Positions 2,175 through 42,642 of a stretch of 64,000 nucleotides of DNA are shown here, one piece after another. Every line of letters starts with the position of its first letter. Positions within the stretch are counted from its first letter, which is position 1. The position numbers and the translations under genes were made by a program. Source of the DNA: Bacteroidetes bacterium GWA2_32_17 (GTDB lineage Bacteria > Bacteroidota > Bacteroidia > Bacteroidales > GWA2-32-17); NCBI GenBank assembly GCA_001769035.1, contig MENF01000100.1:1-64000 (forward strand). Reading direction: 5' to 3'. A model generated the notes under the pieces. The model was given only the letters and a program-made list of their open reading frames with translations, was not told the origin of the DNA and did not search any database.

Positions 2175-2189
2175 AGTAACAGCAAAATA

Positions 2190-5100
2190 TTAATTTACAA
2201 TTATTCGATAAACAACATTTTCTTTTTCTGAATAAATTTTTAAGAAATATATTCCTGCTGAAAATAATTTTGTTGGAAAACTGAATTTATCTGCATTTTT
2301 AATTTTCTTTTCAAACACTTCTTTTCCATACACATCAGTTAGTAAAAAGTTATAGTTCGAAAGTTTAGGCATTTTTATTTGTAACAATTGTCCTTTATTA
2401 ATTGGGTTAGGAAAAACTTTATATCCGTAATTCGACACATTGTTAATTCCTATACAAACATTATTAGTAATTTGAATTGTATCGCTACTAAAACAGTCAT
2501 TATTGTTCGAAACGGAAACCCAATAAGTTGCAATTCCAATAGGAGTTATGCTACCATCAATTGTAATAGAGTTTAATAAAGAACCTGTATTCCACAAATA
2601 ATTATCATAGCCAATTCCTGCATCAAGTGTAAAAATATCTGTATTGCACATAAATGTATCTATCCCAAGGTTTATATCAGGAGAAGCGAGGAAATTTACT
2701 GTAATTGTATCAATATCTGAACAGTTGTTAATATCATAAATCAGAATTGTGAAATCAACAATTCCAGAATAATCATGATTTGTATTTACATTAACAGACT
2801 GGCTGTTTCCGCAACAACTCCATTGATAAAAAGGAAAACCTGCAGTGGCAGTTAAAATTAAAGATTCATTGCTGCACACGGTTGTGTCATTACCTGCAAA
2901 AACAGTAGGATTGGCAACAACGTTTACGCTGATGGTGTCGTAACTGTCACAACCGTTATTATTCCATACATGAACATAATAGGTGTGCATCCCCTGTGAA
3001 AGAACTGTTCCATCAAGTAACACTGAACTTGAAGTTTCACCTGTATTCCACAGATAGTGATCTGCAACAGTATTTGAATTTAGGATAAGTGAATCTTCTT
3101 TACAGAAAGTAATATTATTACCTAAATTCGCATTGGGAGAAGGGATAAATGTTACGGAAACAGTATCGGAATTTGAACATGAGTAACTTTGATAATATAT
3201 AGTTACAGTATAGTTCACTGTTCCTAAATTAGTGTGATTTGCGTTTACATTAATGGATTGAGTATAACCACAACAACTCCAATCGTAATTTACATATCCC
3301 GGAGAAGCTGTTAATGTTACAGTTTCGTTATTGCACACTGTTGTATCTGAGCCTGCATTAATATAAGGGGTAAAAACTGTTAATAAGATAGTATCTATAA
3401 TAACATTGTTCAGATGATCAGTTGCAGTTAAAACATATTGAGTTGTGACAGAAGGTGTTGCTATAGGATTTAATACGGTATCGTTACTTAATCCGGTAGA
3501 GGGTGACCAATGAAACGAATAAGGTGGAGTACCACCAACAACAATGTTGTTAAAATAATATGGAGCTCCTTTGCAGATAGTAGTGTCTTTAGTATATAGA
3601 TGAGCGATGGTATTGGTATCAGCAAAAATCTCACCGCAACTCCAGTTTTGCGAATTGTAAAAATCAATAATGTTAGAAGTTATTTTTTTCAAAAGTGGGT
3701 TTACAGATGTTAAATTATTTCCCGAATAATCAATAGCATTAGGAAAAGCTACGTCAATACAAAGAGTGGTACCTGCATTAAAAGTAAATGGTCCAACCGT
3801 ACCAACCCCTCTTCTATCACCAGGTGGAAAGTTTTCAGTTACTTCCGACCATCCTCCCGGAATATTCGGATAACTGCTAAAACAATAATTTGTGTAAACA
3901 TTTCCTCCATATCCATTTCCTCCATAACTATAAGGTGTTCCATCTTTCCAGTATCCATTTAATACATTATAAAACTCAAAATTTGTAGAAGGATCGCCCA
4001 TATTTCCACTTGAATTACTGTAGTAATTGAAAGAATACATTGGGGAACTTAATAATACTACTCCTTGAGCGGGGATGTTAGTGCCATATTGTGCATCGTT
4101 AGGAGTAGCATTGTAAACATAATATAAACTTATAGTGCTATCGCAACCTATATAATCATCTGTTGGTACTCCGACATCAATATCGGTGTATATACCAAGA
4201 TAGAAATCATGATAATCGTTGACTGAGTAATTATACACTTTATAGTTGCAGAAAACAGTATTTGCAAGTGCCGAATCGGTTGAATTAAATGAATAAGATA
4301 AGGAATGGATTTCAACACCCAGAGGCAATCCACCTGAACCATGTGTGTATGCAACATCATTAAAAATTGTCAATATAGCCTGGTCGCCTCTGATTAACGG
4401 ATAGTCACCATTTATTGGGTCATAAAGATTATTATCATTTACATCTATATAATCAGCAGTTGGAGCCGGCCAATCAATAATTGAGAGAGGAATTATATAT
4501 CCTGGTTGATTGTAATTCAGAATGTGATTATCTATGTCTGTTTTTGAAATTTTCCATATTCTGTTCCATGTACTATCTTCAGAATAATTATTTAAATCTG
4601 AGTAGATTGGTCCCGACCATGTGTCATTATTATAATTAGAAAACCCTTGTGCAGCTAAATGAAGTTGGTTATTCTGGTCAAATCCACCGAGCCATATTGA
4701 ACTGGCAAAAATGGATGTAAATGCTGTATTTTTGGGTACTCTAAAACCCGCAATTTGTTCAGGTCTTTCAAAGAGTAATCCGGTGGAATTAATTCCGGCA
4801 GCAATATTGTTAGTGTCAAGATAATCAAAACGAACAGGTGGGATAGTCCATTTACGTGTTTCTATTAAACCATTGCTACTACCAAAATATACAAGATTAC
4901 CATTTGAGATAATTGAAACAAAACTACCGTATGAAAGACCATTATTCTCATTGAAATTTGTAAAAAAAACACCATTATAACGAGTTACGCCAACAATACT
5001 ATAACTAATCCAAATATTATTAGAATTATCTTGTGATAATGCTGTAATTGAATTTCCAAGAAGTCCATTTGTTGTTGTATATATTGTAAACGAACCATCA

Positions 5101-11182: not shown

Positions 11183-11508
11183 AATTATACTTTGAACGGG
11201 TTTCACCACGTTGGATAATATATTGGATAACGATATATGAACTTATAAAATATATCCCACGTGGTAAATTATTACATTTGAGTTTAAAGTATAGGGTATA
11301 ACCTGCAGAACACAAGTTCCAAGAACCCAAGCCCCAAATTTCAAGACTTGTAGTGATGCTGATAAATCGGGACGAACTAACCAAGATTTACGCTGCGAGC
11401 CATCTTGGGATTTGGAGTTTGGAATTTGAGATTTTGGGCTATACCTTGTACCTCTATACCTTTTTGTATTCATGAAATGCTAAAATTTATCCCGTTTTCA
11501 GTATAATT
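11183..11508. mobile_element. MITE-like element (family II)
   Basis: Left aattatactttgaacgggttt and right aaatttatcccgttttcagtataatt are inverted copies; shared internal segments with 16385-16541. Confidence 0.6.
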
Positions 11509-11805: not shown

Positions 11806-12132
11806 TTTTTCCGTCCCGATGGCTATCTGGCAATGTCATTAAGTTAAGGTGGGTTCTAAAAATCAATATAGTTCGTCATAGCGGGCTTGACCCGCTATCT
11901 CATATCAAAGGTAGAACTTTGATTGTGAGATGCTGAAATAAATTCAGCATGACGATTTGAGTATTTTTAGAAGTCCCCTTAACGTAATTTTTAAAAAATA
12001 TCGAATATCGAATACAGAATGATGCATTTCGAAGTGGTTGATTTACTTCATTATTTGGTGTTCGATGTTCATTATTCATTATTCTTTTTTCTTAACTTAA
12101 CGACATTAGGCTATCGGGAGCTATCGGAATTA
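11806..12132. repeat. Nested inverted-repeat structure with a cloverleaf core at 11873-11955
   Basis: Outer arms ccgatggctatctggcaatgtcattaagttaagg / cttaacttaacgacattaggctatcgggagctatcgg; inner arms gttaaggtgggttctaaaaat / atttttagaagtccccttaac; core with four perfect stems. Confidence 0.75.
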
Positions 12133-41867: not shown

Positions 41868-41927
41868 GCCGTCATTCCCGCGCAGGCGGGAATCCCCTGT
41901 TCGAAGCACAACATCATCATTTGCCAT
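41868..41927. repeat. 60-bp direct repeat, copy 1 (REP-like palindrome inside)
   Basis: gccgtcattcccgcgcaggcgggaatcccctgttcgaagcacaacatcatcatttgccat, identical to 42583-42642. Confidence 0.95.
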
Positions 41928-42119
41928 TTTTTTTGTTATTTTAAATCATCCTAAAAAAAATAATAAACATTTTGCTTATATAAAACCCGCCAAATAAATG
42001 AATTGAAAAAAATAATTTTGACAGTTCGAAAAGAAATGACTATTTTTGATAAACTTTTAATAGAAAGAAAATTACAAATAAAGAGTTTATAACTATGATA
42101 TAAAACATGAGCTTATCAA

Positions 42120-42311
42120 ATGAAAGTTAGTGAAATAATTAAGATAATTGAAAATGATGGATGGTACTTTGTCAGGCAAAAAGGTAGCCATAGACAATAT
42201 AAACATAATAAAAAACACGGACGAGTTACAATAGCCGTACATAAAATGTCTGACGATATTGCTAAAGGAACTTTAAATAGTATATTGAAACAAGCACAAC
42301 TTAAAACTTAA
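42120..42311 (+). CDS. hicA: HicA-family toxin
   Basis: MKVSEIIKIIENDGWYFVRQKGSHRQYKHNKKHGRVTIAVHKMSDDIAKGTLNSILKQAQL, HicA dsRBD-like fold with GSH motif. Confidence 0.93.
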   Translation: MKVSEIIKIIENDGWYFVRQKGSHRQYKHNKKHGRVTIAVHKMSDDIAKGTLNSILKQAQLKT

Positions 42312-42318
42312 AATTTAT

Positions 42319-42537
42319 ATGGTAAAATATTTAGTTGTATTCGAGAAAACGGAAACAGGTTATAGTGCCTATGTTCCCGATTTACCTGGTTGCATAGCTA
42401 CCGGAAAAACAAAAAGCATGACTGAAAAACACATAATTGAGGCTATTCAGTTTCATCTTGAAGGATTAAAAGAAGATAAAATTAAAATCCCGATGTCAAA
42501 AACTGAAGCAGATACATTTGTTTTTGCTTTAAAATAA
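42319..42537 (+). CDS. hicB: HicB-family antitoxin
   Basis: YLVVFEKTETGYSAYVPDLPGCIATGKTKSMTEKHIIEAIQFHLEGLKEDKIKIP. Confidence 0.93.
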   Translation: MVKYLVVFEKTETGYSAYVPDLPGCIATGKTKSMTEKHIIEAIQFHLEGLKEDKIKIPMSKTEADTFVFALK

Positions 42538-42582
42538 AAAATACTGTTTTTGATAACCTTTTAATTGTAATTTACCTTATGA

Positions 42583-42642
42583 GCCGTCATTCCCGCGCAG
42601 GCGGGAATCCCCTGTTCGAAGCACAACATCATCATTTGCCAT
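42583..42642. repeat. 60-bp direct repeat, copy 2
   Basis: Exact match to 41868-41927. Confidence 0.95.

Follow-up and report, generated by a model that had tools for sequence, protein, structure and literature searches.

A head-to-head heterodimer of CGTC-type REP hairpins within a 131-bp MITE at a TTAA site of a Bacteroidetes genome

In REP systems, the enzyme usually in charge of folded single-stranded recombination is a Y1/RAYT transposase. REPs that bear a CGTC tag were described from five phyla, including the Bacteroidetes, where they occur mainly head-to-head, often as heterodimers, and have no associated transposase (Di Nocera, De Gregorio and Rocco 2013, PMC3733652). Each such unit is built from an unpaired CGTC tag (or TGTC/CCTC), an AT-initiated stem of 8-9 bp, a loop of 4-5 nt and a short tail, which is mostly CCA (PMC3733652). 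In Anabaena variabilis (GTAG-15) and Halothiobacillus neapolitanus (CGTC-1), REP dimers were found inside palindromes, which the authors called targets (PMC3733652). The palindromic elements RPE-4 and RPE-6 of Rickettsia are CGTC REPs as well (PMC3733652, PMC10969869).

The window, that is, the whole stretch of 64 kb from Bacteroidetes bacterium GWA2_32_17 that was analysed here, contains a new member of this family of repeats. The first-pass annotation had drawn an 83-bp cloverleaf at 11873-11955, with a 7-bp closing stem, three arms and Watson-Crick stems throughout, and had proposed that it be checked by folding. Its sequence and coordinates match the letters of the window, and DNA folding returned exactly the structure drawn, in which every stem pair is Watson-Crick and the stem of the central arm is offset internally, by one base at one point and by two at another. 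As DNA the fold has an energy of -25.0 kcal/mol (z -8.7), whereas 200 dinucleotide shuffles gave -7.1 ± 2.1 and none of them was as stable; as RNA it has -40.6, compared with -17.9 ± 3.0 (z -7.6). Both lie far below the shuffles. A scan of the whole 64 kb in 9130 windows of 93 nt with a step of 7 gave no lower fold, the runner-up being at -21.5. The cloverleaf is a real, stable structure. ARAGORN found no tRNA in it, in agreement with the earlier statement that it is not one.

In the cloverleaf, two different CGTC-type REP hairpins are joined head to head, as a heterodimer, around a structured spacer, which bears out one of three suggestions made earlier, that of an REP-like element. Unit A lies on the forward strand at 11874-11902 and consists of the CGTC tag (11874-11877), the hairpin ATAGCGGG-CTTGA-CCCGCTAT (11878-11898) and the CTCA tail (11899-11902). 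Unit B is inverted and occupies 11926-11954 on the reverse strand, with the tag at 11954-11951, the hairpin ATGCTGAA-TTTAT-TTCAGCAT at 11950-11930 and the tail at 11929-11926. The layouts are CGTC[AT-N-GCGGG-loop-CCCGC-N-AT]CTCA for A and, inverted, CGTC[AT-N-CTGAA-loop-TTCAG-N-AT]CTCA for B; both have an 8-bp stem with AT first and a 5-nt loop. In the R1 census the units scored 47.0 (A) and 43.5 bits (B), both being among the model's own sequences. Between them, on the forward strand at 11904-11923, lies the spacer hairpin ATCAAAG-GTAGAA-CTTTGAT, which is perfect here and has lost at least one pair in most other copies. The closing stem of the cloverleaf takes in both CGTC tags, a T/A pair that flanks them and the AT at the start of either hairpin, while the central arm combines the two tails (CTCA/TGAG) with the spacer hairpin. 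Pairing across the dimer is confined to these common flanks, namely the CGTCAT/ATGACG tags and the ATCTCA/TGAGAT tails. Because the stems of the two units differ, each pairs with itself and a cloverleaf results rather than one long hairpin; judging from the sequence, two equal units would give a single long hairpin, and different ones would have to fold on themselves.

A gapless alignment of 22 units showed that they have in common the tag (CGTC in 21, TGTC in one), the AT-initiated 8-bp stem, the 5-nt loop and a CT-rich tail. Six of the eight stem pairs vary on both sides, and the remaining two (AT) are invariant. The signal is lost when the partner is slid by 1-3 columns. This set was partly picked for intact stems, so its 100% pairing is biased. 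In a less biased second set of 110 units, selected by the left arm alone, all eight pairs were Watson-Crick in 70. Among the 97 of the left-arm set whose inner stem is mostly paired, the outer variable pair was complementary in 86 (G-C 45, T-A 29, C-G 9, A-T 3, others 11). Alignment of whole MITEs, with eight copies that are few and close, gave weak covariation, and the strong signal is that between REP units. The earlier proposal would have been refuted by arms that diverge without compensation, and the opposite was seen: the stems covary. Since pairing was kept by compensatory change, it is as folded single strands that the hairpins work or once worked. The evidence fits folding as RNA and folding as DNA alike, and the two cannot be told apart; G-U and A-C mismatches in the stems, which might hint at one or the other, amount to only a few events. 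Two near-identical MITE copies of the congener G002 (L084 and L085) differ in unit B, the hairpin of which holds an additional nested palindrome (TCCTGAA...TTCAGGA) in one of them, a difference that is a snapshot of REP stem growth. Similar nested stems occur in L006 and L139.

The annotated extent proved correct as the inner part of a larger element, of which the outer MITE at 11848-11978 and the flanking TTAA duplications had been missed. A 3-kb DNA query showed that copies in a congener reach past the dimer on both sides, and homologous copies end at the same bases. The ends of the element, GGTGGGTTCTAAAAAT at 11848-11863 (forward strand) and GGGGACTTCTAAAAAT at 11963-11978 (read on the reverse strand), pair with each other as 16-bp terminal inverted repeats with 3 mismatches. 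A TTAA stands on either side, at 11844-11847 and 11979-11982. All of this lies within a dispersed host repeat at 11832-12107, which has inverted ends of its own (AATGTCATTAAGTTAAG / CTTAACTTAACGACATT). Three paralogous copies of this repeat, on contigs C226, C211 and C95, are free of the MITE and have a single TTAA and no insert (e.g., CAATGTAATTAAATTAACGTAATTTTT); therefore 11848-11978 is a 131-bp MITE inserted into TTAA. These empty sites lack both the inverted ends and the dimer, which must therefore have moved together, regardless of how they first came to be joined. Other parts of this intergenic region, which is largely made of dispersed repeats, are a 326-bp dispersed element with 18-bp inverted ends (11183-11508) and a 155-bp element with dozens of matches in the genome (11537-11692).

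The same end points recur in the MITE copies of this genome and of one congener, most of which are flanked by an AT-rich 4-bp duplication of their own. Of 19 REP-bearing elements, 16 carry a perfect duplication of 4 bp at precisely the offset of the MITE, compared with 0-3 at the other offsets tested, and this fixed-offset count also supports the right-hand TTAA. The duplicated 4-mers in REP-bearing elements include TTAA, TATA, TTTA and TAAA. Elements that have the same ends and do not bear REPs showed the duplication at this offset in 7 of 24 cases. The element is thus 131 bp long, non-coding, bounded by terminal inverted repeats and accompanied by target duplications at several independent sites, as befits a MITE, an element of 70-300 bp with terminal inverted repeats of 15-30 bp. 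The target duplication and the empty sites show that the whole MITE was inserted at this locus; the site it entered is a TTAA of a pre-existing repeat between an adenylate-cyclase-like gene and ssb. It might be argued that the TTAA-flanked inverted repeat is a mere palindromic target entered by the REP dimer and not its carrier, as was proposed for the palindromes of two species that hold REP dimers (PMC3733652), and MITEs with the same ends and other interiors do exist here. This is decidedly unlikely, given that beyond their inverted ends most REP-bearing full elements (16 of 19) have a duplication of their own and that the empty sites lack ends and dimer together.

The insertion also bears on another suggestion of the first-pass annotation, a structured RNA. 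If the cloverleaf were a dedicated non-coding RNA or a cis-regulatory RNA of ssb or of the cyclase gene (which encodes a two-component-regulator propeller/Y_Y_Y protein with a cyclase domain), the very stable RNA fold and the position between two genes of the same strand would be accounted for. A search of Rfam with the cloverleaf matched no family, there is no terminator-like site, and promoter-like sites are no commoner than in shuffles. In congeners, the end of the cyclase gene (query 1-245), ssb (1442-2050) and the next gene (2189-3000) were matched on different contigs, and these matches leave out the cloverleaf. Near-identical elements occupy unrelated places, and the dimer sits within a mobile element that is marked by a target duplication and an empty site. 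An RNA gene is therefore highly improbable. As a caution, a stable multi-arm intergenic fold may turn out to be an REP dimer rather than an RNA gene. The window copy is best read as selfish repeat DNA without a dedicated host function at this site, and on the evidence as a whole we hold with considerable confidence that a heterodimer of CGTC REP hairpins forms the core of a 131-bp MITE inserted in TTAA.

The first-pass annotation named no other copies and proposed a search for them; many dispersed ones exist. A 111-base query matched 28 places in the same genome, where 62 units were found at E<=0.01 by a covariance model built for them. The same model found 14-53 units in each of four congeners, so all five genomes of the genus have them. 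Across the phylum, units were present in 76 of 247 sampled genomes, or 50 of 124 genera, in a census that scored no more than 30 units in any one genome. The distribution is patchy: G007 has 45 units, while three other members of its genus have none. In the fetched loci, neighbouring units were arranged head-to-head in 18 cases, tail-to-tail in 9 and in tandem in 16, the last count including an array of G007, and by inspection of the stems 17 of the 18 head-to-head dimers are heterodimers. Tandem arrays of CGTC units are dispersed in G007 at no fewer than seven places (at least seven; L099, L231-L236), in a genome where no Y1_Tnp gene was detected; a sequenced example has a period of ~56 bp, a conserved spacer and an inverted unit at one end.

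Units and dimers are also found in frame inside long coding sequences of the genome under study (L042, L045, L054, L058 and L067). The host genes are named here from Pfam and PDB matches and general knowledge, and we take them to be mtaB, purH, an FAD/4Fe-4S oxidase and an NAD(P)H-hydrate dehydratase, with one more protein left unnamed. The insertion in mtaB is a 64-bp head-to-head heterodimer, and that in purH corresponds to residues 308-332, which have no counterpart in PDB 4ehi. Elsewhere in the window, at 41868-42640, a small gene pair that was named by eye as a putative hicA/hicB toxin-antitoxin module is bracketed by two direct repeats of ~60 bp, 715 bp apart, which start with a CGTC-1-type REP unit (CGTCATTCCCGCGCAGGCGGGAATCCCC...).

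Most REP dimers other than the window copy, including those in frame, have no MITE shell. The MITE end pattern RGNNNTTCTAAAAAT was found at 74 sites in the same genome (G000), compared with 11 for a reversed control, and at 136 in G002, compared with 7. It has not expanded in G001, G003 and G004, though all three have REP units; one dimer of G004 (L087) has ends similar to those of the MITE. A MITE end lies within 55 bp of 6 of 50 strict REP units in the fetched loci of the genome. MITEs with the same ends and different interiors are common. The family with ends GAGGGGTTCTAAAAATTAGATTTTTCGAGGC.../CGGGACTTCTAAAAATTGC... (L102, L105, L106, L187-L196) has varied interiors that include other palindromes. 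From the separate distribution of ends and units it follows that at this site the MITE carries the REP dimer as cargo and that most units are spread in some other way. The genus is thus a clean case, in which one CGTC-REP dimer is demonstrably in a MITE and most units are outside.

As regards the enzyme that moved the MITE, the 4-bp duplication suggests a transposase of the DDE type, which is the most likely mover and would have acted in trans on the 16-bp inverted ends. An autonomous element with the MITE ends was sought in two draft genomes: PF13751 gave no match, and no PF01609 transposase was bracketed by the ends. The transposase at L124 was considered and set aside, as it seems to be bounded by different ends of its own and only interrupts MITE-like sequence. 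Contigs with single MITE ends led only to more non-coding MITEs, ordinary genes or contig breaks, and ordinary genes lie between the widely spaced inverted units at L227. Plasmid and phage sequences searched with the consensus MITE gave no match, and neither did viral contigs searched with the dimer pattern.

The enzyme that spreads the free REP units probably uses the folded hairpins as recognition ends, to judge from the conserved pairing. An obvious candidate is a Y1/RAYT transposase, which would mobilise the dimer by cutting the folded single strand, as it does for GTAG REPs and REPINs. The dimer has the same architecture as BIMEs and REPINs, and the genome has 13 Y1_Tnp genes or fragments. 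Units and Y1 genes co-occur weakly in the 247 genomes, with Y1 genes in 64 of 76 unit-bearing genomes compared with 114 of the other 171 (odds ratio 2.7, P = 0.005, without correction for descent), and on account of this weak positive association a Y1 enzyme might act in trans. Against this, the loci of 43 Y1 matches (up to 1.5 kb on each side, 133 kb) contain no unit, and no Y1 gene was detected in 12 of the 76 unit-bearing genomes, four of which (G271, G111, G202 and G221) have 11-30 scored units each, nor in the relative G007 with its 45 units. Y1 transposition, as in IS200/IS605, makes no target duplication, so the 4-bp duplication at the window copy is not its product. The survey of 2013 likewise found no dedicated transposase for CGTC REPs (PMC3733652), and in the literature no later report of one was found. 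Mobilisation by a Y1 enzyme is, on balance, unlikely. The last of the earlier suggestions, a folded single-stranded recombination substrate, may hold; the enzyme that would usually process it is not linked to these units. REP-rich genomes can thus be without the transposase class that is thought to move REPs, which narrows the search for the mover; G007, G221 and G271 are example genomes in which to seek it. Within the genus, too, the spread of the units bears no clear trace of that class. As a tentative and rather doubtful generalisation, the CGTC-REP heterodimers of the phylum may be modular folded-DNA elements that are spread by a non-Y1 enzyme and that a TTAA-type MITE family has taken up as exchangeable cargo. 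If this is true, the same pair of hairpins moves along two unrelated routes of transposition.

The units of the window belong to the CGTC-REP family, a known kind of repeat, of which they are a new member riding in a TTAA-type MITE. Their 8-bp stem and 5-nt loop place them nearest to the CGTC-2 type (PMC3733652). They share with CGTC REPs the head-to-head heterodimers, the short unpaired tail, the spacer with complementary ends, the patchy distribution, the intragenic units and the lack of an associated transposase. Unlike those, the tail is present here as CTC(A), where most have CCA, there are two stem types (GCGGG and CTGAA/CCGAA), and a minority of the dimers in this genome lie inside a MITE with target duplication. 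The dispersed arrangement of two inverted REP hairpins with a spacer is also that of the BIMEs and REPINs of RAYT transposases (GTAG REPs), from which the present elements differ in that the tag is CGTC and not GTAG/GTGG, no Y1 gene adjoins the units, and a target duplication accompanies the window copy. Like the elements of Rickettsia, they are short dispersed palindromes that also occur in frame in conserved genes (here mtaB, purH and others); the bacterial group and the sequence are different, and the window copy is intergenic. As in the palindromes of A. variabilis and H. neapolitanus, an REP dimer is centred in a longer inverted repeat. Unlike in those species, the outer repeat of the window is the end of a mobile element, as its duplication and empty site show, and it also exists without REPs.
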